IMG/VR virus record: IMGVR_UViG_3300032287_001282
Span: 1 to 36,382 of that record
From: a virus
Length of the DNA: 36,382 nt
Strand: one strand, 5' to 3'
Shown: positions 1 through 32,622 of the stretch, piece after piece
Position numbering within the stretch: the stretch's first letter is position 1
Layout of the letters: the number at the start of each line of letters is the position of its first letter
Notes under the pieces: model-generated
Seen by the model: only the letters and a program-made list of their open reading frames with translations
Database searches by the model: none
What the model was told of the DNA's origin: nothing
Program-made: the position numbers and the translations under genes

Positions 1-3000
1 CTCTTGTACAGCGCCTAATAATTTACCTTGCAATGGATCAAAATAATCTAAGTTTTCTAATGTATTATTAGTTGATGCACTAAACAACTGTATCGGACCT
101 ATACTATTAATATCTACTATTGGTGCAGAACTTCTATATACTGCCCAATCAGGTTCACTACTTGCGCTTATATAGCTAATTACTTGACCGTTTGTATCTT
201 CTGCCTGTTGCGTTGGGTTAAAATTAGGTGTACCTACAATCACACGATTGTTATTAAAGTCAATGGCTTGACCATACATTGGCTGAGCACCGTAATCTAG
301 ATTACGTGCATTTATACTTTGTGCGTATGCAAATTTGCCCGGGCTATTTACACTTTCATTGTATGCTGACAAATAGTCAAACATGTAAACTGCGCCGGCA
401 TTAGTAAATGTATCTACCCATTGTGTAGCATTATTATCAAATACTGTATCATTATCTGTTTCATCATCACTAAAATCAAATGTAGTTGCAGTATAACGTA
501 TTCCAGTTGGTGCACTAGCTACAAATGAACCTTGTTCATTAAATTTTACAACTGTACCAAACTGAGTTGGACCGTATACATGCGGGCACAAGATTTTTTG
601 TGTGTGAGTATAAAGAGATACACCCATCTCATCTAACGTTGCGCTATTTAACACAGCCAATGACAACTTGTTACTGTTAGTGCCAATTGCTAAATCTATC
701 AATTGAATAATAAGTTTGCCGTCAATTGCAGTTGATGTTACGTTAGTTATATTAGCCGCATTAATAGCATTAGATGCAACAGTTGCATTACCAGCAGTTA
801 ATGTTACTGCATAACCATTTAATAGTATTGTTCTTTCAGTAGTTATATTGCAATCTTGTGTACCAACAATGATACCATACTTTTCACCACCATTAGTATA
901 TCTATGTACTGCACCTTCTTGATTCTTATCATTTAATTCAAAAGGGGCACCAACTAATATTTCATTAGCAAAGTTATTAGTATCAACACTTGTACCAAAC
1001 TCTACACCAACTCTTGGTGTTTCTTCATTGGTTAACGTTTGTGTTAATACAAAATTGGAACTACTTACGTTAACAATATCACCCGCATTTACTGTTGTGG
1101 TTGATTGATTATAAATGTATAACGTTGAACCAATTACTGCGTAATAATCAGTGTCAAGCAATGTACCGTTAACGTTAACAAATAATGGTGTTGTCTGTGC
1201 AACAGCACTCATTGAACCGGTACTATTAGTCAATGACAATGTTGTACCATCAAGTGTGGTTGAAACAGTAATTGTTGAACCTACAATAGATTTAACATAA
1301 TATACTTGGTTTAGTGATATGCCACCAAATACCGTACCAGTAAAGACAATTGGTGTGCCGGTCGCACCTGAAGATAATCCGCTCACACTATCCAACGTTA
1401 TTGCATTACTACTAATTACTGTCGCAGTTTTAGTAGTAGTTGCAGGAGTCCATGTTAAATTAAACAATTGCGGAACAAATGTTTGACCTGTAAATTGTAC
1501 TTCAAAGTTCTGCACAGTTCTACCAAACGCATATGTATAGCCGTAGTTTTCAGTATTAACATCGTAATTTTTATATGGTGCACCAATTACAAGAGTATCA
1601 CCATAGTAGTCAGTTGCAAGAGAGTATCCAAATTGATCTCCGGACGTTGTTAATCCTAATGCGTCTCCGTCGATGATAGTAGAATATTCATACAAATCTG
1701 TAATTGTAGACTTGCGATAAACATAAACACTGTTATTTACAATATCAGATATATACAACCAATTTTTATCACCAGACATTGCAGTAGAACTTCCCCAATT
1801 TGTTACACCAACCGGAGCAGTAATAGTCTGATACAATTCTATTTCATTCTGCAATGTTGTAGTTATTAATTGATAAACATATACAACTGGTGTGCCTGTT
1901 GGTTGTGATATTACAAATAAATCATCTACATATGTAATCGTAGATCCAAATGATGCAGAATGGGTGAGAGTCTGATTAACAATATATGAATCAGTATTAA
2001 TATCAAATGCATATCTATACACTTCACCTGCATTTGCATCACCAATCAAGTATCCCATTAATGGTGTATATGCTACGGCACTACCAAATGATTGACTGTT
2101 CTGTCTTAAGATTTCTTTATCATATTGATAGTTTAATGATTTACGGAATACAGCCCAACTTCCATCATTATTTGTATCAGCCCAAACTTTAAGTTTGTTA
2201 AACTCATTGTCAATTAATGAAGGTAAGTCTGCAATTTCAGGTGCAGTAGCAACACGCTGACTTTGCATTCTGAAGCCAACACCTTGACCAGTAAGCGTAG
2301 TTATACTAGATGATAATGATAAGTTAATAATAACTTTGAATGGATCTACTACTGCGGCTACAATATAATAATTATTAATTTTTGAATTAAAGTTCAATAT
2401 TGCAAACAGTTGATACTTGGTCAAGTTATGTGCTTGACTGAACGTAATAGTTACTGTGCCATTTAAATTGTTCTTTGCAGTAGTGATGGCACCTAAACTT
2501 ACAGGAGTATAAACTTGCCAGTCAGCTAAGTAGTTCGCTAACCAAACATAATCACGAACATAGAATTGACTAATAGGAACTCTTACGTTGGCAGCGTTAC
2601 GTGCATTTGCTAATCCAGAATAGAAATAGCTTGACATTTTAACGTCATTGTAGTTTACATAACCTGCAGTCGGTAATAGTGTAGAAGGTTCAGTTGGACT
2701 AATTGTAGGTAAAACATCAGGAGAATTAATTGGCCTGCCGTAATTAGTAATAGAATACAATGGTATTTCTTGTTGTACTCCATCAGTGTACGTGCCATTA
2801 GTCAACCCAAGAATACTTGGATTACCTGTTAGTACCGGTTCTTGTAATCTAAGTTCAATAAAATTATCATTAAGTACGCCACCAAATTCACCAGACTTAA
2901 TAGCCCAGTTCTCGTAGATATCATAGTCGATGCCACCTTGTGGCAATGTAGCACCTTTAAATGCACTAGCGGCATTGAGTGTACCTTTTTGTTTAATTAA

Positions 3001-6000
3001 GTTTTTATAAACATTAACCTGAGTAATATCTGACAAATTAGCAGTTGCTAAATAATCTCTCGGGCGGTAACCAATCAAACTAAAACTTAACAGGTCTGCG
3101 TCATTTTCTAAGTTAGCATTGTTTACACTATAGTATAATGTACTTTCGTATGAACGAGTTTGGCTATTAGGTAATAAGCCCTTTTGTATTTCGGCGTAAG
3201 GAACTTCTTTCCAATCAAGCTCATCAAATACTTGTTTAGCTTGTACAATATTCAATGCACTCCAGTATCTGTTTTTGTAAAGTACAATTGCACCCTTTGT
3301 ATATTTGAATTCACTACTCCATTGTTGAATATTATCTTGGTTAAGAATAAATCCGGCAGCATCTACTGTACCATTCCATTCTGCTGTTTTTGCACCGCGA
3401 ACAAATATACGATTTTGTCTCAAGCCAGTAATCAAATTATAAATGATATCATCAAACAATGTTACATTGTTGAATACGATGCCATGTTCAAAATTACTAA
3501 TGTTAAACTGACCATAACTAATTGCATCACCTTGATTCAAAGGTTGTACAGTGAATGCTGTATTTTCACGCACAATAGATAAATCAGTTGATTGTATTGG
3601 ATATAAATTTTGATTCAATACAAAGTTTTGTTGACGCAATGTCAATGGTTGTACGATGTAACTGTCACGGTTGATAGCTAATGCAGTGGCAGCCGGGTTT
3701 ATAGTTGTAATACTACCAACTTCCCAGCCCATTTGTGACCAATACATGTATTCAGCAACCATTTGTGGCCATGTAACCGGTATAGCATTTTCAATTTGAT
3801 CAAATACTAAACCTTGTGTTTCTAAATATTTTCCATAACAATTTAAGAACTGTGCTACTTCTTGCACAGAATAGAATTCAGTACCATATGGTACTAAAAC
3901 AGTTCTATCATAAAATTCAGTTGCTAGTTTAACTGTTAAATTTTCTACTGTAATAGTTTCATTAATTCCGTTATTTTTAGGAACTAATATTTTAAAATAA
4001 GCATTGGTTTGTGAATTGCCATATACTTTGAATCCGTTATCAGATATTTGAATTACAACACCAGAGTATACAATTCTATCAAATGGTTGGTTATCATATA
4101 ATAAAACTTGATAACTTTCATCAGGAATTAACAATGAACTGTTATTACTATTTGCTGAACTCTTTTCAACATAAAATTGTAATAAATTTTTATCACTGTA
4201 ACCAGCAACACGATATACCAAACGAACATCTAAGTTGTCTAGTAGTTTAGTGATGTCGGTTGTAGCATCGACACCAACTTGTTTCTCAAAGTCTACAATC
4301 CAATTAATGTAACTTGTTGCAGGAGTACCATCTCCATATATTGGAATGTTTTTAACGTTTAGATGACTTCTGTTATTTACTAAGAACTGATTGAATTCTA
4401 CGTTATATTTGTAATGATCAATATCAACTGCTAGGTTATAGAATTCTGCAGGGCGTGTTAATGCAAGTATTCGCATTAAGTCAAATGCCCATGTACTACT
4501 TCTGCGATATGCGAATTCTGCAGGACCTACATCTCCTACTTTCCAGTCACGGTTAAATGTACTTTGATTATAATTACCTAATATAGATATAAACGGTGAT
4601 ACCAAATCACCATTACTGTCTACTGGAATTACACTAAGTAAACCATCACGTATGTATTTAGGTATCACTACAGGATTGCCGTTATTCCAGTCAACGCCGG
4701 CTGCCATGTCACCCCATAATACCAAGTTATCACTTGTATATGGAGCCGCACCGTAACGGCTTGTCCACCATGTAGGTTCATTTTCATAACCAATCATCTC
4801 CCACGGTGTAGCGTCAGGCGTAGAGGTATCATAATAATACAAATACAATCCTCTAAAATAACCTTGCTCAATTGCATTTCCGTTTATTTTATTACCATTG
4901 TTATCATAGTTGTATGAGAATTGATTATTCTTATTATAAAACTGTCTCTTATAATTAATTCTGTTTTCACCTACCCAATTTAAGAAAGATTCAGAATAGA
5001 TTTGTAAAAATTCATCGTAGGAGTAATCAGTTGTTCTAAAGAATCCAGGAAGAACTTCAGTCAGTTCAACAGGAATAACGTTACTTAATTTTAAATTGTT
5101 GTATACACGTGTTTCATATTCTAATAATACTTGATCTCTGAAGTCATCTAATGTGTTAGTTTCAGGGTTATAATTCCCATACAATTTATTAAATGAACCA
5201 TCATGACCTACAATAAAATATGTAGGTTGAGTATATGCTGTATCCAATGTTACCGATGGGATAGTTGCAGGATACAAACCTAATTTTGTAGGAGTATTTG
5301 GAACATAACTTCCATACGTTTGATTATATTCATTAATTACAATTTGATCGTTTGGTAATAAGTCGGTTGTTACTATTACTGATGGAGCTGTTGTGCTTAC
5401 TGTATAATCAACTCCGGTAATCAATTGAGTTGTTACTCCATCACGTATTAAGTATACCAATACACTGTAATAATTAGAAGTAGTGAAAGTATAAACTCTA
5501 CTTAGTGGATAGATACTAACATCAAGTGAATTTGCAAAGCTGTAAGTGTTACTGATGTATGCTGACTTGGAAGGCAGCATATCACTCCAAAAGAATGGTT
5601 CACTATCTGTTTTATTTGCAGTTATTTGATCCATTGCATCATCAAGTATCTGAGCCGGCGGTAATATGCTTGTATAGTTTGTATTATTAACAGTATCAAC
5701 TAGTAAAGTTTTAAATGTAATATATTGCCTGCTATTATACAATAAAGCATTGAATAGGTTATGACTTTGTTTGCGTAAGAATGTACCCGGTAATGCTAAT
5801 GATGAACTGTTCTGAATAATTCTATTGCCCCATGGCACCATATTACCTAAGTCACGATAGTTATTAGGTCCAAAAATTTCACCTGTAGTATTTGGGTTGT
5901 TGTAGAAAATACTCTGATATTGACCACGAATGTCACCGATGTTAACTATAGTAACATCTTCATTGAATGGATTATTACTTAAGTTAATTGGTATGCCATA

Positions 6001-9000
6001 GTATGCAGTACTACTTACTTGATTACTTAATATTAATATTTGAATAACTGTATCAATTGCATCTATATTTGGTATAGTTACCGTAGTTAACGTATCCGTA
6101 GAAGTTACTGTATAATGTGCAGGGTCAAGATAATTATTATTAATATAAACTTGTACAATTGGCCAATTTGTTGCAGTAGAACTTAATGGGGCAATATCAC
6201 ATGTAAACGTGTTTGATGAGGTGCTAGCATACCAGTTAAACTCAAATGTTTGATATTGAACACTAGGTGATACCGCAGTTTGCCAACCTAATTGACGTAC
6301 ATAATTAAGTCTATCAGTATAGTTGTAAACATAACCAGTATTTACGTTTTGTGTAATTGGATTAGTTCCATCGACATAATTAAATGTTTGTGAATTTAGT
6401 GTAACATCAAAGCTAATGTCACCTACGTTGTTAACTGATGAATATCGTATCGGAATGCCTAATATTGGATCATCATTTCCTACTCCCAACCCATAACTAA
6501 ACAATTTACTACCAGTAAATGAAGTACCAATATATACAGTTTTATCACCAAAACTAATTCCGTTGTCATCAAATATATCAAAGTATGGCGCTTGATTTAC
6601 TGTGGTTTTTTGCTGACCAGCAAACCATTCTAAGCCATCAAAGTAAAAATCTTTACCTTGGTTATAATAACCGCGATATACAGCAGTCTGTTCATCGGGT
6701 AATACATCCCCTTGCGGGGCTTCTGTTAATGTAATTACAGGAGTAGAATTTGGAGTAAGTGACGAGAATCGTGCAACATAAATTTTGTTTCTAACACTTA
6801 ATGTAGTGTCTGCGGCGAATACGATTCTTGCTCCATCAAATAATGCATAGTTACTTAAAGGTGTATCTGCTGTTACTACAGAGACATCCGTAGTGCCAAT
6901 GATGGGATAGTTAATACTATCCCATCCTATGGTAATAACAGTATTATTACCAATAACAGAAACATTTCTAATGTAAGTTATGTCGGGCAAAACACCTGCA
7001 GAATCAATAATATATTGTCCTGCTTCAAACAATCCACTTACATCAGATGATGGTATTGTAACAGTCGTGCTGTATGAATAAATTGTAGTTGCCACTGAAC
7101 CACTAGCTGTTGATAACGTTATCGGCGTACCTTGCTTTTCAGTTGATACAATAATATTATTTCCAGATATCTCAGTAATATAATAAACTTGAACAACTGT
7201 ATTAGGTACCGGTGTGTTTGGTACATATTGTAATAGTCCACCAATATCAGAAGCCACAGAAATACTATCATTTACATACAACCCAGTTGTACTGTTCAGA
7301 ACAATTTGGTTTGTTAATGCTACCGTTGACGATATGGTTTTACTAGTTATTGGTGACGGATAATTAGCAGGTGCAATAGTTGCATCGTAGGTTGACCAAC
7401 CTGCTACATCAGGATAATAGTTTTGTTGACCAGCAACTAAACTAAATGCATCAGTTGTTCTAGTGTCAATAAAGTCGATTGGATCTTTACCTACTACACC
7501 TGATTCAAATAAACGTAAGTTAGGATAAAATTCAATAATAGGACGTTTAGCTTTATTATCATTTGTAGCCCATGCTGTTACTAATGTAGGATCATTGTTA
7601 TATGTTGCAGTTGCGTTAATAACATCAATGTGGAACCAACGATTACTACGTGACCATGCATTGCGATTAATTGCGTTTCTTGCAATAGTAATATAATCTT
7701 GTTGTACTGGAATATATAATCCAGAGTCATAGTTACCAACGTCATACGGTGTAGTATCGTAGGGAATAAATGTGCCTTCTGAAAACAAACCGGGACTTAC
7801 TAATGATTCAACTGGTATCAATTCAATTGCATTACCAACACCTTCAACATAATATTCTACATTATTATACGACTCTGGGTATACATTTCCTTGAAACAAA
7901 ACTTTCAAGCCGTTAGTAAACACAACACCGTTTGGAGAGGTGTATGTTTTCTTTCCTAAAATTTGTGTTATAATATTGATTTCGTTTGTGGTATTACTAT
8001 CAACTAATTTAATAACACCAACTTTTGTGGCTGATGATCCATCTTGGTAATATAATTGATCCAATATTGCACTGTTGTATGGAATTAATTCTATTGATCC
8101 AGTAACGTTTCTATAGAAACCTCTATTACCATATTCAGTTCCGAATATAGGAATAATTTTTTGATTTGTAGGGATCGAACCGGATGGTGTAAGTTGAATT
8201 ACATCACCTGTCAATATTGATATAGTATAAAAAGTAGCATTTACTTCAGTAAAGTAACCACCTTCAAAGTTAGTTTGATCTAACTGATTACCGGGATATG
8301 TATAAGGTGAGCCGCCATCTTCATCAAACAATGTTTGATCATAAAATTTTGAAGTAAACCCGTATTCATCAAACACGCCGGTGTTGTAAAACATTACGGT
8401 TAAACCGTCTAGTGCGGTTACACCATCAATGCCACCAATCGAACTAATAGTAGCACCATTAACTTGACTAAATGGCAATGTAGATACTACATCACAACTA
8501 GGTCCTAATGGGAAGTTAAATTCATCTAATGCGTTCTTTTCAGGAACAACAAATGTGACTGATCCAGTCGTTGCTCCGTTATTAGTTACACCAAATACAT
8601 CTCTTGTCTGAACATTAGGTTGTGTAATACTGTAACCAGTTACGCCTGGTTCACCTTGAATCCAAAATTGTGTAGCTTGATCTACTGTAAACGTATATGT
8701 GCCACCACGCAATAATGTTAATGTTGGGTTAGGTGTAGATGTAGCATTAATATCTGATGAAATTAAATAATCAGTAGCTTCATCTACTACAGTAAAGTTT
8801 ACTGTATTGTAAACAATATCAGCAGAAATAACTACACGTGCAGGACCTTCTGGCAACCAATAGTATTGATTAAAGTTAATAATTTTATCTAAATCAGTAA
8901 AACTATCCCATGAATAGAATTGACTAGTAAACAATCTACTATTATTGTCAGTAATTCCACCTTCAAGTTTTAGTGCATCAACAATACCCGGATAGCTAAT

Positions 9001-9264
9001 AAAATCATTAGCAGTTGTATCATTTTCTTTTAAGAAAACAACACCCGGATCTAATTGATAATCTGTTCTAACCTTAGTTGGTTCAGTAACATAGTTATCT
9101 TTTGCATTAACGCCATATCCAAACTTACTACCTAAATATCCCTCAATCCTTTTTGTACTGGGTTGAGCAACCAACTGATCTAACGTTGCCTGCAAAAACT
9201 GGCTATTAGTTGTTGTTTGAAATATCTCAGGTAAAAAATTCAGCGTTCTAATTCTTGTTGCCAT
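1..9264 (-). CDS. Giant tail fibre/adhesin-like structural protein, C-terminus outside window
   Basis: One frame is open from the ATG at 9264 to the window edge (3088 codons, no stop), so the protein is at least 3088 aa and its C-terminus is missing. It starts 28 nt after gp6 in the baseplate operon, which points to a virion surface or baseplate-attached fibre. Residues about 175-245 contain a beta-sandwich-like segment (LTLLRGGTYTFTV, FWIQGEPGVTGY, GVTNNGA, VTFVVPE) of a kind I recall from cyanophage structural proteins. From about residue 2390 to the end there are recurring FG-GAP/integrin-type propeller motifs: FGSAVAY at about 2391, FGSTITYVDDLFVIS at 2437, WGSSTAMS at 2490, FGYSLATDYYGDTLVIGAPY at 2545, FGTSVDTNNFANEILVGAPF at 2756, FGTVVKF at 2901 and YGQAIDFNNNRVIVGTPNF at 2995. 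A host-binding role is inference. The late-promoter match in the 28-nt spacer is poor, so it is probably read through from gp6. Confidence 0.85.
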   Translation of the reverse strand, partial: MATRIRTLNFLPEIFQTTTNSQFLQATLDQLVAQPSTKRIEGYLGSKFGYGVNAKDNYVTEPTKVRTDYQLDPGVVFLKENDTTANDFISYPGIVDALKLEGGITDNNSRLFTSQFYSWDSFTDLDKIINFNQYYWLPEGPARVVISADIVYNTVNFTVVDEATDYLISSDINATSTPNPTLTLLRGGTYTFTVDQATQFWIQGEPGVTGYSITQPNVQTRDVFGVTNNGATTGSVTFVVPEKNALDEFNFPLGPSCDVVSTLPFSQVNGATISSIGGIDGVTALDGLTVMFYNTGVFDEYGFTSKFYDQTLFDEDGGSPYTYPGNQLDQTNFEGGYFTEVNATFYTISILTGDVIQLTPSGSIPTNQKIIPIFGTEYGNRGFYRNVTGSIELIPYNSAILDQLYYQDGSSATKVGVIKLVDSNTTNEINIITQILGKKTYTSPNGVVFTNGLKVLFQGNVYPESYNNVEYYVEGVGNAIELIPVESLVSPGLFSEGTFIPYDTTPYDVGNYDSGLYIPVQQDYITIARNAINRNAWSRSNRWFHIDVINATATYNNDPTLVTAWATNDNKAKRPIIEFYPNLRLFESGVVGKDPIDFIDTRTTDAFSLVAGQQNYYPDVAGWSTYDATIAPANYPSPITSKTISSTVALTNQIVLNSTTGLYVNDSISVASDIGGLLQYVPNTPVPNTVVQVYYITEISGNNIIVSTEKQGTPITLSTASGSVATTIYSYSTTVTIPSSDVSGLFEAGQYIIDSAGVLPDITYIRNVSVIGNNTVITIGWDSINYPIIGTTDVSVVTADTPLSNYALFDGARIVFAADTTLSVRNKIYVARFSSLTPNSTPVITLTEAPQGDVLPDEQTAVYRGYYNQGKDFYFDGLEWFAGQQKTTVNQAPYFDIFDDNGISFGDKTVYIGTSFTGSKLFSYGLGVGNDDPILGIPIRYSSVNNVGDISFDVTLNSQTFNYVDGTNPITQNVNTGYVYNYTDRLNYVRQLGWQTAVSPSVQYQTFEFNWYASTSSNTFTCDIAPLSSTATNWPIVQVYINNNYLDPAHYTVTSTDTLTTVTIPNIDAIDTVIQILILSNQVSSTAYYGIPINLSNNPFNEDVTIVNIGDIRGQYQSIFYNNPNTTGEIFGPNNYRDLGNMVPWGNRIIQNSSSLALPGTFLRKQSHNLFNALLYNSRQYITFKTLLVDTVNNTNYTSILPPAQILDDAMDQITANKTDSEPFFWSDMLPSKSAYISNTYSFANSLDVSIYPLSRVYTFTTSNYYSVLVYLIRDGVTTQLITGVDYTVSTTAPSVIVTTDLLPNDQIVINEYNQTYGSYVPNTPTKLGLYPATIPSVTLDTAYTQPTYFIVGHDGSFNKLYGNYNPETNTLDDFRDQVLLEYETRVYNNLKLSNVIPVELTEVLPGFFRTTDYSYDEFLQIYSESFLNWVGENRINYKRQFYNKNNQFSYNYDNNGNKINGNAIEQGYFRGLYLYYYDTSTPDATPWEMIGYENEPTWWTSRYGAAPYTSDNLVLWGDMAAGVDWNNGNPVVIPKYIRDGLLSVIPVDSNGDLVSPFISILGNYNQSTFNRDWKVGDVGPAEFAYRRSSTWAFDLMRILALTRPAEFYNLAVDIDHYKYNVEFNQFLVNNRSHLNVKNIPIYGDGTPATSYINWIVDFEKQVGVDATTDITKLLDNLDVRLVYRVAGYSDKNLLQFYVEKSSANSNNSSLLIPDESYQVLLYDNQPFDRIVYSGVVIQISDNGFKVYGNSQTNAYFKILVPKNNGINETITVENLTVKLATEFYDRTVLVPYGTEFYSVQEVAQFLNCYGKYLETQGLVFDQIENAIPVTWPQMVAEYMYWSQMGWEVGSITTINPAATALAINRDSYIVQPLTLRQQNFVLNQNLYPIQSTDLSIVRENTAFTVQPLNQGDAISYGQFNISNFEHGIVFNNVTLFDDIIYNLITGLRQNRIFVRGAKTAEWNGTVDAAGFILNQDNIQQWSSEFKYTKGAIVLYKNRYWSALNIVQAKQVFDELDWKEVPYAEIQKGLLPNSQTRSYESTLYYSVNNANLENDADLLSFSLIGYRPRDYLATANLSDITQVNVYKNLIKQKGTLNAASAFKGATLPQGGIDYDIYENWAIKSGEFGGVLNDNFIELRLQEPVLTGNPSILGLTNGTYTDGVQQEIPLYSITNYGRPINSPDVLPTISPTEPSTLLPTAGYVNYNDVKMSSYFYSGLANARNAANVRVPISQFYVRDYVWLANYLADWQVYTPVSLGAITTAKNNLNGTVTITFSQAHNLTKYQLFAILNFNSKINNYYIVAAVVDPFKVIINLSLSSSITTLTGQGVGFRMQSQRVATAPEIADLPSLIDNEFNKLKVWADTNNDGSWAVFRKSLNYQYDKEILRQNSQSFGSAVAYTPLMGYLIGDANAGEVYRYAFDINTDSYIVNQTLTHSASFGSTITYVDDLFVISQPTGTPVVYVYQLITTTLQNEIELYQTITAPVGVTNWGSSTAMSGDKNWLYISDIVNNSVYVYRKSTITDLYEYSTIIDGDALGLTTSGDQFGYSLATDYYGDTLVIGAPYKNYDVNTENYGYTYAFGRTVQNFEVQFTGQTFVPQLFNLTWTPATTTKTATVISSNAITLDSVSGLSSGATGTPIVFTGTVFGGISLNQVYYVKSIVGSTITVSTTLDGTTLSLTNSTGSMSAVAQTTPLFVNVNGTLLDTDYYAVIGSTLYIYNQSTTTVNAGDIVNVSSSNFVLTQTLTNEETPRVGVEFGTSVDTNNFANEILVGAPFELNDKNQEGAVHRYTNGGEKYGIIVGTQDCNITTERTILLNGYAVTLTAGNATVASNAINAANITNVTSTAIDGKLIIQLIDLAIGTNSNKLSLAVLNSATLDEMGVSLYTHTQKILCPHVYGPTQFGTVVKFNEQGSFVASAPTGIRYTATTFDFSDDETDNDTVFDNNATQWVDTFTNAGAVYMFDYLSAYNESVNSPGKFAYAQSINARNLDYGAQPMYGQAIDFNNNRVIVGTPNFNPTQQAEDTNGQVISYISASSEPDWAVYRSSAPIVDINSIGPIQLFSASTNNTLENLDYFDPLQGKLLGAVQE

Positions 9265-26739: not shown

Positions 26740-27064
26740 GTATTTTAAAATTAGTTGTCTCCGTTGGGAGACCTCCTTGAAGAAGCCTGAAAGATGGCGG
26801 ATGGATCTGGAGCAAGCATGAATAGCGATATTCATGGGTATACCGAGAGGGCAATCGGCAAAGCGAACCCTCAACAAGTCTATTGATATTTTATCTTGAT
26901 TTAATAGAATGTGCGTTGCTGAAGAATTGTTTAAGTACAATAGCTTCACTACAATCCCGTAATAACTTTACAGAGCAACCGGTAGCAGTTAGTGTCAGAA
27001 ATAGGCGACTAACTGGGGAAAAGATAACACTGGATGACGGTCATGGCAAACATACCTTTCCCAT

Positions 27065-27088
27065 TGGTAGTGCAAATTTGCACTACCA
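27065..27088. repeat. Perfect 24-nt palindrome
   Basis: TGGTAGTGCAAA followed by its exact reverse complement TTTGCACTACCA. It could be a stem-loop in either transcript or a binding site for a dimeric protein. There is no T run beside it, so it is not a simple terminator. Confidence 0.8.
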
Positions 27089-27153
27089 TGGCTTCTAATC
27101 GGCAATATATCCCATTAACAATTAGAATAAAAACAATAGATTACCGTAAGAAA

Positions 27154-27196
27154 TAAGAACGAACGAAGTGAGTTCTTAGATGAACGAAGTTCATCT
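27154..27196. terminator. Tandem hairpins, possible bidirectional terminator
   Basis: TAAGAAC...GTTCTTA (27154-27178) is followed at once by AGATGAAC-GAA-GTTCATCT (27178-27196). Both contain GAACGAAG. They sit between converging transcripts of the nuclease gene and the gp26 region. The T runs are short (TTT on plus, TTATTT on minus), so they may equally be stems of the candidate RNA. Confidence 0.35.
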
Positions 27197-27241
27197 TTAA
27201 TAGAGAAACCCGATGTGATAAATGAATAATTACGGATTTGA

Positions 27242-27418
27242 TTAGAAGAACGGCATTTGCGTTTTCTTAGTAGTTTCCAAATTACTTTCAATCAATTTGT
27301 TTATCATTGATCTTTCCTCATAGGACATGTTAAGTACATCGGTGTATTGTACACCTCCCCTCATGTACCAAGTTAGTGTAAGCGCAGACTTTTTAATTTC
27401 TGCACTTTCCTTGTCCAT
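27242..27418 (-). CDS. Small tail-assembly (gp51-like?) protein, probably a -1 frameshift extension of gp26
   Basis: The frame is open from the gp26 slippery site (27478) to the stop at 27242. The first ATG gives 58 aa (MDKESAEIKKSAL start), but there is no ribosome site for it and no other usual start codon upstream. The 18 residues before the ATG (RLRLLHLNPEGVQKLIEN) look like normal helical coding sequence. The conserved-looking core is LTLTWYMRGGVQYTDVLNMS, then YEERSMINKLIE and a TTKKTQMPFF C-terminus, a pattern I recall from small proteins beside gp26 in T4-like marine phages. Read through the frameshift it adds 76 aa to gp26, giving a 350-aa product. The gp51 label is by position only. 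Confidence 0.65.
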   Translation of the reverse strand: MDKESAEIKKSALTLTWYMRGGVQYTDVLNMSYEERSMINKLIESNLETTKKTQMPFF

Positions 27419-27429
27419 ATTTTCAATCA

Positions 27430-27478
27430 GCTTTTGAACACCCTCAGGGTTTAGGTGTAAAAGCCTTAACCGAAAAAA
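27430..27478 (-). promoter_or_regulatory. Programmed -1 ribosomal frameshift signal
   Basis: Minus strand: slippery heptamer T TTT TTC (27478-27472) in the gp26 reading phase (GAT TTT TTC GGT TAA), one sense codon before the stop. It is followed by a 7-nt spacer GGTTAAG (27471-27465) and a stem of GCTTTTACACC (27464-27454) with GGTGT (2742 to 27438 side, i.e. 27442-27438) and AAAAGC (27435-27430), with a 2-nt bulge and an 11-nt loop. The -1 frame has a TGA just before the heptamer and then stays open for 76 codons. Confidence 0.7.
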
Positions 27479-28293
27479 TCAGTTACATTAATAACAATTG
27501 ATTGTTCATAATCGTGTTGGCAATGAACACATTTAATTTTCTGAGGTTTGATTTGTGTGCTATCTTTTAGTTTAGCATGGTAATCACGTAATTCTATGTA
27601 TGCATTCTTATCACAGTTTTGTAAGAAATCTAAAATAAATTCAGTTTCACTTACTGTGATATTTGGTGTTCTTACATATTCAATAGTTTGTGCTAAGACA
27701 GCCATAGTAACTTCTGTAATTTTTACAATCGCTTCTTGTGTCTTTTTGGTACGTTCTTCTTCTGGTAATGCATCCATAGTAGAAAACATTTTTTGAATTT
27801 CAAACTGTGCCATAGATGCTTGATTCATTTCTCTGTAAGTCAATGGTCTAAATTTAATGAACAAATCACCTGTTTGAAGTTCTTTAGTGTAGTCGCCGGG
27901 TTTCATTGTTTGAAGTATTCCAATTAAATTAATTGCATACGTAGCGACTTCCTTACAGCTAGGGCATTCACTTTCAATTTCCATATCATTACCTTGGGCA
28001 GCCGATCTGATAGCTATTAAAATAGCGTCTAAATCAGTACTAGGTATTGACCAAGGGTCTCTGATATCAGGGACACAGCTTTTTATAATTTCTACAATAG
28101 CAGAACCGTTAAACAATGCGTCTGGTGTTTTGCTAGTAATTTCATCAATTGCAGTCATGGGATAAATTGGTAATTCCCCTGTTTCTGTTTTATTCAGTGC
28201 TCCGGCCGGATATCCAATTCCTCCGCTAGGTAATTTCAAATAGATTGATGGTCTACGAAAATATTGTTTTAACGGGTTGTTTGCTAATGACAT
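27466..28293 (-). CDS. 26: gp26-like baseplate hub/tail assembly protein with zinc ribbon
   Basis: 275 aa (T4 gp26 is 208). The N-terminus (NPLKQYFRRPSIYLKLPSGG) and the ELPIYPMTAIDEITSKTPDA segment are typical of the T4 gp26-like baseplate family. Two CxxC pairs, ECPSCKE at about residue 110 and KCVHCQHDY near residue 258, would bind zinc. Proteins of this family act in hub assembly, and their position beside the tape-measure gene resembles that of tail-assembly chaperones. The C-terminus ends VTDFFG at a slippery TTTTTTC, where a -1 shift would append a further 76 residues. AAAGGAA precedes the ATG. The gene is divergent from the tape measure and has a late box and a terminator-like hairpin in its leader. 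Confidence 0.75.
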   Translation of the reverse strand: MSLANNPLKQYFRRPSIYLKLPSGGIGYPAGALNKTETGELPIYPMTAIDEITSKTPDALFNGSAIVEIIKSCVPDIRDPWSIPSTDLDAILIAIRSAAQGNDMEIESECPSCKEVATYAINLIGILQTMKPGDYTKELQTGDLFIKFRPLTYREMNQASMAQFEIQKMFSTMDALPEEERTKKTQEAIVKITEVTMAVLAQTIEYVRTPNITVSETEFILDFLQNCDKNAYIELRDYHAKLKDSTQIKPQKIKCVHCQHDYEQSIVINVTDFFG

Positions 28294-28307
28294 GTTATTC
28301 CTTTGAT

Positions 28308-28392: not shown

Positions 28393-31300
28393 ATGACACC
28401 CGAAGAACAAGAAAAAAGTGAAGCACTCTATAGATCGGTCAACGAACAGTTAGAGCGCCAAAATAACATTTTGGCTGCACAATTTGAACTTGCTAAGAAA
28501 ACGGCTGAAGCTCAGGGCATTAATATATCTAGCCTTAACAAATCCAAAACAGCTTATGATGGACTGTATGGCTCTACTACTAAACAGACTGCGGCTGGAG
28601 AAGCTAATGCACATGGTCTTGCAGTAATGAATCAAGCCATGGCCCAATTTGATAAGGCCGCAATATCTGGAACAGCCGCAACATTTGCCTTTGGTAAAGC
28701 ATTACTAAGCACCGAAAAGAGTTTTGCAAAATACAATGATGTATTGAAAAATGCAGGCGATGCCGCATGGGAAGCTAGTAAAAACTTTGGCTTACTTGGA
28801 ATGGCAACCGGTGCACTAATTAAAGGTGTCACTATGGCTGCTCAAGCGGCCACAAAACAAGCAGATAACACATTAAAAGCTACCGATGATTTAAGTAAGA
28901 TGGGTAGCGCAGGTGCATTTAGTGCTAAAGAAGTATTAAAGATGGGTCACGATGCTGGACTTACATCAAAGAATTTAGAAGTATTCACTAAAGCTACAAA
29001 AACATTAGGTACTGCAACAATAAGTTTGGGTAGTACTGCCGGAGAAGGTATTGCAGAATTTGCTAAAATGACTGCTGTTAGTAAAGAACAGCGAATGGCA
29101 TTTCAACGTTTAGGCATTAGTCAGGAAGAATTAATACAAAGTCAAGCAGATTTTGTTTCCATGCAAAAAGCATCCGGCGTACAGATTACTGCACGAATGA
29201 AGCAAGATGAAGGTTTGAAAAAGGCTTCATTAGAATACACTAAGAACTTATTAGAATTAGCGGCAATAACCGGTGAAGATGTTGAAGGTGCTAAAAAATT
29301 AAAACTAGAGGCTGAAACTGAACTTGAGACAAAAATTCAAACCAACATGATGCAACAGCGTATTAATGCGTTGCAAAAAGAAGGTACTCCTCAGGCAGAA
29401 GCTCAAGCAGAATTACTGAAAAAGGAATTAGAATCAAGACGTGGAATGCTTGAAGTTGCCACTAGTACAAAAGATGCAGAGATTAAATCAGCAACAGCAT
29501 CATTTTTAGCGACTGGCGCGATTACTGAGCAGTCAGTGGTGCTAAAACGATTAATTCCAAACATTGAAGAATTTGGTGAAAGAGTTAAAAGAGGCGAGAA
29601 CGTTGCTGTTGATTTTGCAAAAGCATTAGCTGATGGTGTTGATGCAAATGTAAGAAATGTTGGCACTGCTGGTATGCTAGATAAAGCAGTTGCAAAAACA
29701 TTTGGTATGACTGACCAAATGCTTACTTATAGCGCACAAAAAAGAGATGTAGACTTAAAAGCTGCCAAAGATGCTGCCGGCAAACTTATAGGTGCACCAG
29801 AAAAAGGTGAGACTGGTGACAAGACTGCTAAAGATCCAGCACAAATTGCTAGAAATGAATTAACTGAACTTGAAATTAAAGCACAAGTAGAGTTGGATAA
29901 ATTATTAGCAACTGTTAATCCTTTAATAACCGGGTTCGATAAAACCACTACAGCCGCTACGTTATTAGCCGGCGCAGCCGGATTAGCCGCAATTGCTTTA
30001 ACTGCTATGGCAGGTTTAAGTGCATTAAAAGACTTAAAAGGATTAGCAAGTAAAGGTGGTCCGGCTGGTAAAATGCCAGGTGGCGGTGCACCGACAGCTC
30101 CGGCTCCTACATCACCGACTAAGCCTTCTGGTATGTCGGTTGATGAAAAAGCCAAGTATGATAACTTACGTAAAGAAGGTGTACCAGCCGCCGAAGCAAA
30201 ACGACAAGCCGGCGGATTTAGTAGTTTAGTAAGTGCAGAAAATAAAATAACTCCACCAAAACCAGTTACACCACCAATACCAGTAGGTGCCGCAACTGAA
30301 ACATTAGCCAAAGAAGCAGGTGCTTTAGGTAAAATGGGAGGGGCATTGAGTACAGCTAGTAAATTTGCAGGACCGGCCGCAGGTGCAGTATCAGTATTAA
30401 CCGGTGGATACACCGCAATTCAAGGTTCCAAAGCCGTAGATGAAAAAGTTAAAAAAGGTGAGATTACTAAAGACGAAGGTACTGTTCAAAAATCTGAAGC
30501 TGTTGGCAAAGGTGCAGGTGGTGCTGTTGTCGGCTTAGGTGGCGCCGCACTAGGTGCCGCAATTGGTACAATGATATTCCCGGTAGTAGGTACTGCAATT
30601 GGAGCCGCATTTGGTGGATGGTTAGGCTCTAAGGGCGGTGAAATGGTAGGTGAGAATGTAGGTACTATTGTAGGGAAATCTATTATTGAAAAACCAAAAG
30701 TTGATGCTAGTGGTAGAGCTACAGCCGCAACTGATCCAAGAGTGGTAGGTACACAACAAAATCCAGCTAATGTAAAAACTACAGAACCAACAAGTACTAA
30801 ACCAGCAACAGCTACAAATGATCCAAGATTGAAAAATGCCGGCGCAGAATCTCCTGAGAATGTGGCTAAGGGTATAGCTGACATGGCAAAAGAAAATGCA
30901 ATGAGAGCCAGTGTATCTAATGCTGAATCTTTAAAATCAAATAAAGAATTTGTATCACTGGAAATTAATATTACTGCATTGAATAAGACGTTAATGTCAA
31001 CTAATACAGCATTAGCCAACTTAACAGCAACAATCAGCACTAATAAACCAACGACATTTAAAACATCTGAATCAAAACCAATATTTGACACAAAACCAGT
31101 ACAGGTTAAATTAACAACTGAACCAAAACCAGTTGACACTATACCAAAATTAGTTGACGCTACACCTAAACCAATTGACAACACAATTAAACCAGCACCA
31201 GTTAAACCAATGACTGATATTAATGACATGGGTGCAGCCGCAATTTATTCAAAATTAGTAGGTTCTATACAACTAGCAACAGCAAAACCAACTAATACTA

Positions 31301-32622
31301 CACCATCAGTTAGCATAGCAGACATACAAGCTAATATGGCTAAGGGAATGAATCAACCAGAAGCTCAGAAAGCCGCAGAAGCTAAAGCAGAAAGAGAAGC
31401 TAAAGCTAAATTTGATACTAGTACCAGAGCAACATCTGCAACTGATTCAAAATTAGTAGGAGTATCAACTAATTTAGATATGGAGAATCCTGTAGTCATT
31501 GCTAGGCAGATGAAAGAGGATGCACAAAAAACTATTGAACAACGAATAATTGATACACAAAAAATAACCAAAGCATCTGATTCCCAAGAGGTTAGTATGA
31601 CTACTTTGAATAGAACTTTGTTATCAACAAATACTGCACTAAAAGATTTAACAGGATCAATTACTAATATAACTAATCCTACTACTACCCCTGATAGTAA
31701 TGCAAACAAGCCAGTAACTGGTGGTGGTATTAGCATACCTGCAGGAATACTTGCTAGCTTTAAATCAGCATTAGGTGGAACGTCCGGTGGCGCATCCGGT
31801 GCATCGACTGTTAAATCAACAGGTGCACCAACTAGTGAACCAACTGCTAGTACTATGGCAATGACAAGTGAAGGTAAAAAGACTGCAAAGCCACCATCAC
31901 AACCACCCGAAGAAGGTGGCCCAGGCTCTGCAACAAAATCAGTAGACTTAGCAAAAATAATGAAGTTTGGAACAAACTCGGGAACTCAACAAAATTTTGA
32001 AGCATTAGATTCTACATTTAAAGATGCTGTTGTCGCTGCCGCAACTGAGTATAATAGTGTTACTGGTAATAAATTACAAGTTAATAGTGCTAAACGTGAT
32101 CCGGCAGACCAGCAAAGATTATGGGATGAATCAGTAGCAGCCGGCAGGACCGGTATCAGTCCAACTGGTATGCCTATAGGAAAACCAGGTCGTAGCTTGC
32201 ACGAAAAAGGTGAAGCTGTCGATATTCAAAATTATAAAGATCCTGATGCTGTAGCCGCAATGAATAAACAAGGGCTAACACAGAAGGTGCCTGGTGACCC
32301 AGTACATTTTCAAGCTCTTGAAGGTGGTATACTAAATGGTCCCAAATCGGGTTACCCAGTAGAGGGTACTATGCACGGTAGAGAAGCAATCATACCTTTA
32401 AATCCAGACTCTATAATTACTAAGTTATTAACTACCAGTGAAGCACAAGTCAAACAGGAAATGAACAATAATGTCACTACTAATACTCAATCATCAGATA
32501 ATACAAGTCAAATTATGGCAGATTTATACTCAATGATGGAAGAAAAGTTTGATACAATGATTGATATACTTGAAGATGGTAATGACCATACTGAAAAGTT
32601 AGTCAGGTTTTCTGCCGTATAA
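28393..32622 (+). CDS. Tape-measure-like protein with C-terminal M15 peptidase-like domain
   Basis: 1409 aa. The first 450 residues are helical and charged (ELEIKAQ- and KKLKLEAETELETK-type coiled coil). Two hydrophobic Ala/Gly stretches follow, at about 519-545 (LAGAAGLAAIALTAMAGLSA) and 706-745 (GGAALGAAIGTMIFPVVGTA), as in tape measures that enter the host membrane. Residues about 1225-1310 match an M15 (D-Ala-D-Ala carboxypeptidase/VanY-like) fold: VNSAKRDPADQQRLW, then SLHEKGEAVD (S-x-H-x(6)-D) and a second His in DPVHFQ. Next comes GGILNGPKSGYPVEGTMHGR and EAIIPL, a motif common near the end of tape measures. The protein would set tail length and may cut peptidoglycan peptides during infection. 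It takes the place of gp29 (590 aa in T4). Long reverse-strand frames inside it are artefacts. Confidence 0.8.
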   Translation: MTPEEQEKSEALYRSVNEQLERQNNILAAQFELAKKTAEAQGINISSLNKSKTAYDGLYGSTTKQTAAGEANAHGLAVMNQAMAQFDKAAISGTAATFAFGKALLSTEKSFAKYNDVLKNAGDAAWEASKNFGLLGMATGALIKGVTMAAQAATKQADNTLKATDDLSKMGSAGAFSAKEVLKMGHDAGLTSKNLEVFTKATKTLGTATISLGSTAGEGIAEFAKMTAVSKEQRMAFQRLGISQEELIQSQADFVSMQKASGVQITARMKQDEGLKKASLEYTKNLLELAAITGEDVEGAKKLKLEAETELETKIQTNMMQQRINALQKEGTPQAEAQAELLKKELESRRGMLEVATSTKDAEIKSATASFLATGAITEQSVVLKRLIPNIEEFGERVKRGENVAVDFAKALADGVDANVRNVGTAGMLDKAVAKTFGMTDQMLTYSAQKRDVDLKAAKDAAGKLIGAPEKGETGDKTAKDPAQIARNELTELEIKAQVELDKLLATVNPLITGFDKTTTAATLLAGAAGLAAIALTAMAGLSALKDLKGLASKGGPAGKMPGGGAPTAPAPTSPTKPSGMSVDEKAKYDNLRKEGVPAAEAKRQAGGFSSLVSAENKITPPKPVTPPIPVGAATETLAKEAGALGKMGGALSTASKFAGPAAGAVSVLTGGYTAIQGSKAVDEKVKKGEITKDEGTVQKSEAVGKGAGGAVVGLGGAALGAAIGTMIFPVVGTAIGAAFGGWLGSKGGEMVGENVGTIVGKSIIEKPKVDASGRATAATDPRVVGTQQNPANVKTTEPTSTKPATATNDPRLKNAGAESPENVAKGIADMAKENAMRASVSNAESLKSNKEFVSLEINITALNKTLMSTNTALANLTATISTNKPTTFKTSESKPIFDTKPVQVKLTTEPKPVDTIPKLVDATPKPIDNTIKPAPVKPMTDINDMGAAAIYSKLVGSIQLATAKPTNTTPSVSIADIQANMAKGMNQPEAQKAAEAKAEREAKAKFDTSTRATSATDSKLVGVSTNLDMENPVVIARQMKEDAQKTIEQRIIDTQKITKASDSQEVSMTTLNRTLLSTNTALKDLTGSITNITNPTTTPDSNANKPVTGGGISIPAGILASFKSALGGTSGGASGASTVKSTGAPTSEPTASTMAMTSEGKKTAKPPSQPPEEGGPGSATKSVDLAKIMKFGTNSGTQQNFEALDSTFKDAVVAAATEYNSVTGNKLQVNSAKRDPADQQRLWDESVAAGRTGISPTGMPIGKPGRSLHEKGEAVDIQNYKDPDAVAAMNKQGLTQKVPGDPVHFQALEGGILNGPKSGYPVEGTMHGREAIIPLNPDSIITKLLTTSEAQVKQEMNNNVTTNTQSSDNTSQIMADLYSMMEEKFDTMIDILEDGNDHTEKLVRFSAV
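30700..31690 (+). repeat. Two-copy internal protein repeat in the tape measure
   Basis: GRATAATDPRVVG (about residue 774) through TALNKTLMSTNTALANLTA (about 860) recurs as TRATSATDSKLVG (about 1009) through TTLNRTLLSTNTALKDLTG (about 1075). The copies are roughly 230 residues apart, separated by a Lys/Pro/Thr-rich linker. This looks like duplication of a helical module with divergence, a way to lengthen a tape measure. Confidence 0.6.

Follow-up and report, generated by a model that had tools for sequence, protein, structure and literature searches.

At the 3' end of a gp26-like gene in the viral record IMGVR_UViG_3300032287_001282 (IMG/VR, positions 1 to 36,382; this whole 36,382-nt stretch is the window referred to below), the last codons read GAT TTT TTC GGT TAA, and an open frame continues in the −1 register. 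This raises the question of whether the two frames encode two separate proteins or whether some ribosomes pass from one to the other, as an initial annotation proposed when it described a programmed −1 frameshift joining gp26 to a 76-residue extension. The observations behind that proposal were confirmed and its interpretation was supported by our analysis. Judging from the sequence, we put at roughly 0.93 the probability that one gene gives rise to two tail assembly chaperones (TACs), a 275-aa short form and a 350-aa long form, by −1 frameshifting. Sequence comparison established the slippery signal, a selected −1 frame, a conserved stem and homology to gp26 and gp51 of phage T4.

Heptamer and −1 frame among relatives

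In the window, the heptamer T TTT TTC was in phase with gp26, and the −1 frame, beginning right after a TGA, stayed open from it for 78 codons (the two Phe codons of the heptamer plus 76) up to a stop at 27244-27242, leaving 76 residues after FF in the fusion product. The first ATG of the extension is codon 21 (27418), with no GTG or TTG before it and no good ribosome site, in agreement with the earlier description of a downstream open reading frame (ORF) devoid of an early start.

A viral-contig search with gp26 returned 80 relatives at 54-90% identity, of which two (L050 and L063) were cut by contig ends; the 78 complete relatives and the window made up 79 loci, 63 of them distinct. The heptamer, its phase and the open −1 frame were common to all 79. 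TTTTTTC invariably lay ten bases before the gp26 stop and the extension invariably ended 224 bases past it. In every distinct locus the extension comprised 78 codons without a stop, and frames 0 and +1 held 6-8 stops over the same stretch. The upstream TGA was not conserved, the −1 frame opening −10 to −85 before the stop among loci, and by this comparison it is no part of the frameshift signal.

GAT TTT TTC showed no synonymous change across the loci, with a single AAT in place of GAT, and the other conserved two-fold codons of gp26 (F/D/Y/N/C/E/Q) all varied synonymously, with entropies of 0.2-1.0. Within codons 3-20 of the extension, ahead of any candidate start, divergence was highest at codon position 3 and lowest at position 2, a protein-like pattern which indicates that these codons are under purifying selection. 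A second sample of 96 stretches, collected through a pattern in a non-coding element and not by gp26, contained 81 loci with gp26 and extension on contigs partly overlapping those of the first sample, and TTTTTTC was present in 81/81.

The arrangement extended well beyond these relatives. Using tblastn, we matched gp26 and the extension in jumbo phages, whose records name them 'baseplate hub' and 'hypothetical protein'. An in-phase heptamer was found in all 13 cultured jumbo phages inspected (TTTTTTC in 11, TTTTTTT in 2), 10 to 40 bases ahead of the 0-frame stop and with the encoded FF invariant. In cyanophage S-PM2 a 14-bp hairpin comes after TCT TTT TTC GCA TAA, and the −1 frame holds the 58 aa annotated as 'gp51'; the same layout was seen in P-SSM4, Cr30, phiN3, AS-szw and PG216. 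A T7 run replaces T6 plus C in Cr30, phiN3, XacN1 and RAS14. In Vibrio phage VAP7 (Ackermannviridae) the X XXY YYZ heptamer is lacking, and CGTTTTTCG occupies the equivalent position.

The downstream stem-loop and competing explanations

The window RNA was predicted to fold, 6 nt after the heptamer and hence within the 5-9 nt expected at a −1 frameshift site, into a stem of 13 pairs (two of them terminal G-U) with a 2-nt bulge and −12.5 kcal/mol. The bulge had been described correctly in the initial annotation, and its 7-nt spacer and 11-bp stem are replaced by these values. The conserved part was the outer 6 bp, GCTTTT/AAAAGC, with 98.6% of cells paired and the stem complete in 54 of 59 sequences; the inner helix was kept less well. 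Synonymous recoding with the codon usage of the family (300 trials) left the 6-bp stem complete in 0.9 of the 59 sequences on average and in 4 at most. Compensatory changes were also present, namely C-G to U-A in five sequences and G-C to A-U and U-A to C-G once each. The excess over recoded sequences and the compensatory changes together argue that the outer stem is under selection as RNA within this clade. With heptamer, phase and open −1 frame kept as well, the comparison with related phages that the initial annotation suggested gave the supporting outcome. A stem common to jumbo phages was considered and rejected, as their folds differ and most are unremarkable.

From these sequence comparisons we infer that frameshifting takes place, and with what efficiency, in the following way. 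Most ribosomes would terminate at TAA and yield the short form (TAC-N), and a minority would pause at the stem-loop 6 nt downstream. In the paused ribosomes both tRNA-Phe would slide backwards by one base on U UUU UUC, and translation would go on in the −1 frame to give the long form (TAC-NC) with its 76-residue C-terminal domain. If the pair works as lambda G/GT does, the tape measure would be coated by the short form, and the rare long form would use its C-terminal domain to recruit tail tube subunits. T4 has two genes for this pair, 26 giving the short and 51 the long form.

The short ORF could instead be a separate 58-aa gene starting at ATG 27418, as databases annotate the cyanophage gp51 and the jumbo-phage 'hypothetical proteins'. 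Depositors did list separate ORFs in Atu_ph07, 121Q, S-PM2, P-SSM4 and others, and this ATG, the best internal one, is present in the window and in 37 of the 63 distinct loci. In the remaining 26, however, it is replaced by Y, F or L codons, and 16 loci have no ATG, GTG or TTG at all in extension codons 5-30. A start backed by a 4-nt Shine-Dalgarno (SD) match within codons 3-30 occurred in only 7/63, and 36 of the 37 loci having the ATG showed a match of only 3 nt; ahead of gp26 itself, a match of 4 nt or longer was found in 53/63. The separate conserved start with a ribosome site, named by the initial annotation as the outcome that would speak against a frameshift, was thus not what the relatives displayed. 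Purifying selection was moreover evident already ahead of ATG 27418, and a separate gene would leave the invariant heptamer and stem unexplained, making this explanation very improbable.

Slippage of RNA polymerase on the T6 run, producing a mixed mRNA population, is another candidate, given that slippage can occur on poly-T runs and that the heptamer contains six T. Six T is nevertheless a short run for this process, and the last heptamer base is always C in the clade, so the run is never longer. The stem, kept despite synonymous drift, is also downstream and spaced as a ribosomal stimulator would be. We regard transcriptional slippage as improbable for this clade, the T7 phages Cr30, phiN3, XacN1 and RAS14 being less clear. 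A sequencing or assembly error, or decay splitting one long frame, might be suspected of a homopolymer site on one contig, yet it is refuted by conservation and can be practically dismissed, the same frame relation being shared by 19 cultured phages and by two environmental sets of loci, 79 and 81, that overlap in part. The −1 frameshift by ribosomes is the explanation adopted for the features collected below.

Table 1. Features of the frameshifting locus and its neighbour in the window.
Feature	Positions	Strand	Basis
gp26-like gene, 275 aa, short form TAC-N	27466..28293	−	PF12322, phrog_150, AF2 model
AGGA, ribosome-binding site of the gp26-like gene	28299..28302	−	sequence
Slippery heptamer T TTT TTC	27472..27478	−	invariance across loci; zero synonymous variation
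6-nt spacer, closing with the gp26 stop TAA	27466..27471	−	sequence and fold
Bulged stem-loop, likely stimulator	27429..27465	−	fold, covariation, recoding test
−1 frame extension FFRLRLL...TQMPFF, C-terminal domain of the long form TAC-NC	27242..27478	−	conservation, homology
Tape-measure-like gene with C-terminal lysin-like domain, divergent neighbour	28393..32622	+	PHROG matches

Gene family, neighbours and a structured RNA

The gp26-like protein matched PF12322 with 65.5 bits (E=7e-18, cut-off 24.5) and phrog_150 (baseplate hub). Because the isolated extension gave no significant match in Pfam or PHROG, its homology was drawn from profile comparison, in which the extension profile matched the C-terminus of T4 gp51 (hhalign P=3.4e-6, at the modest depth of six gp51 sequences). 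The fused protein aligned with gp51 across its whole length, again with few gp51 sequences. In T4, gp26 and gp51 are both full-length members of PF12322, the C-terminus being longer in gp51, and gene 26 ends in GAG TTC TTT GAG without a slippery heptamer.

Two copies of PF12322 were found in T4 and one each in S-PM2, Atu_ph07 and 121Q, as well as in eight relatives of the window whose contigs span 103-352 kb and may be fragments. On the simplest reading of these counts, most lineages would have one frameshifting gene, and T4 and its near relatives two fixed genes. We lean towards the view that a frameshifting gp26 is the ancestral condition throughout the T4 superfamily (Far-T4-like, jumbo, cyano-, rhizobial and vibriophages), with T4 gp26 and gp51 representing a duplicated frameshifting gene resolved into a fixed short and a fixed long one. 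Invariant CxxC pairs were also noted in the gp26 family (C110/C113 and C255/C258), and similar pairs in T4 gp51 and gp26, which suggests zinc ribbons in these chaperones.

The gene adjoins a tape measure, as the initial annotation stated, in a divergent orientation: the neighbour at 28393-32622 matched phrog_794 (tape measure, E=4.5e-13), phrog_1047 (tail-associated lysin) and phrog_2649 (endolysin). The N part shared within a short/long pair and this tape-measure-like neighbour match tail assembly chaperones; the databases name the product a baseplate hub subunit, but tail assembly chaperone is the better name. A chaperone role of the gp26/gp26-extension pair is proposed by analogy. An AlphaFold2 (AF2) model of the short form (N part) only, with a mean predicted confidence (pLDDT) of 87, matched in BFVD only its own family, the T4-like baseplate hub assembly proteins.

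Several results weigh against this interpretation as a whole. The window stem was no stronger than its shuffles (z = −0.34 on a single sequence), and that single sequence alone is therefore suggestive only. Neither the exact stem nor the inner helix extends beyond the clade, the jumbo phages folding differently. No solved structure in the PDB matched the short-form model at E<=0.001, and gp26 and the tape measure point away from each other, whereas in lambda the chaperone gene directly precedes the tape measure.

Elsewhere around the locus, the tape-measure-like protein has an endolysin or D-Ala-D-Ala carboxypeptidase-like C-terminal domain at residues about 1200-1372, and a giant open frame, cut by the left end of the window (1-9264, −) and 3088 aa or longer, adjoins baseplate wedge and hub/lysozyme-like genes. 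We guess that the window phage belongs to a Far-T4-like lineage, since its gene content is T4-like and its relatives are uncultured; the Far-T4 paper (PMC4360716) makes no mention of gp26 or frameshifting.

The interval that separates the end of the gp26 extension from a RusA-like gene holds a large, conserved structured RNA (26757-27205, +), which is no part of the frameshift. Its RNAalifold consensus from 35 diverse relatives contained 66 pairs with 97% of cells paired, at least two Watson-Crick types occurring at 36 of the 66; G-U exceeded A-C by 75 to 6 on the + strand, and the RNA folded better than its shuffles, with z −3.4 on the + and also −4.5 on the − strand. It is convergent with the chaperone gene in 84/84 cases, 193-1010 nt apart. 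A 149-nt core model matched 12/12 held-out clade loci but neither the jumbo phages nor T4, nor, convincingly, S-PM2; the RNA had no Rfam match and was not found in GTDB contigs by exact pattern or in annotated phages by blastn. A palindrome is present around GTAGTGCAAATTTGCACTAC (27071-27090) along with two adjoining hairpins with similar loops (27157-27197), the second of which (27178-27196) was paired in 35/35 sequences with compensatory changes. In jumbo phages L084, L087, L091, L092 and L094, 680-840 nt without annotated genes follow the extension, the next gene being mostly an endonuclease VII. The core model had no match in these stretches, which may hold another RNA or an unannotated element.

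Comparison with known chaperone systems

The arrangement resembles lambda G/GT and P2 E/E' in that one gene, beside the tape measure, undergoes a −1 slip near its 3' end that adds a C-terminal domain to a rare long form. In lambda the tape measure is co-directional and downstream, whereas in the window it is divergent, and the lambda slippery sequence is G GGA AAG, unlike T TTT TTC. T4 genes 26 and 51 share with the window gene their PF12322 membership and, in gp51, a C-terminal piece that aligns with the window extension; they differ in that the short and long forms come from two divergent genes, gene 26 lacking the heptamer. These two arrangements offer a natural comparison of frameshifting and gene duplication as two ways of setting the short:long chaperone ratio, and the findings in the window support T4 gp26 and gp51 as tail chaperones over hub parts. 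For a core tail gene of many environmental and cultured T4-like phages, the annotation is corrected from a baseplate hub plus a hypothetical protein to one frameshifting chaperone gene.

The 2022 abstract of Vladimirov and colleagues is said to report that frameshifting is conserved in several T4-like groups, genes 26 and 51 serving the T4 group instead. In phage Adele (Vandenendeviridae/Andersonviridae) the ORF downstream of the chaperone gene is likewise misannotated as hypothetical, the motif there being GTTTTT and the phage families being other ones (PMC12846349). Passages of two later papers, both citing Vladimirov et al. 2022, mention separate short and long genes in T4-like phages (PMC10885494) and poly-T slippery sites in their TAC-N genes (PMC12846349), and by these passages T4-like chaperone genes of this kind are already identified by Vladimirov et al. 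The chaperones of Vladimirov, Gautam and Davidson (Virology 566:9-15) reportedly have in common with ours the 26/51 PF12322 family, the poly-T site in the short gene and the short and long forms. The window member differs from them in being uncultured and Far-T4-looking, with a stem conserved only in its clade, and the present analysis contributes the stem evidence, the Far-T4-like clade and the contrast in copy number.
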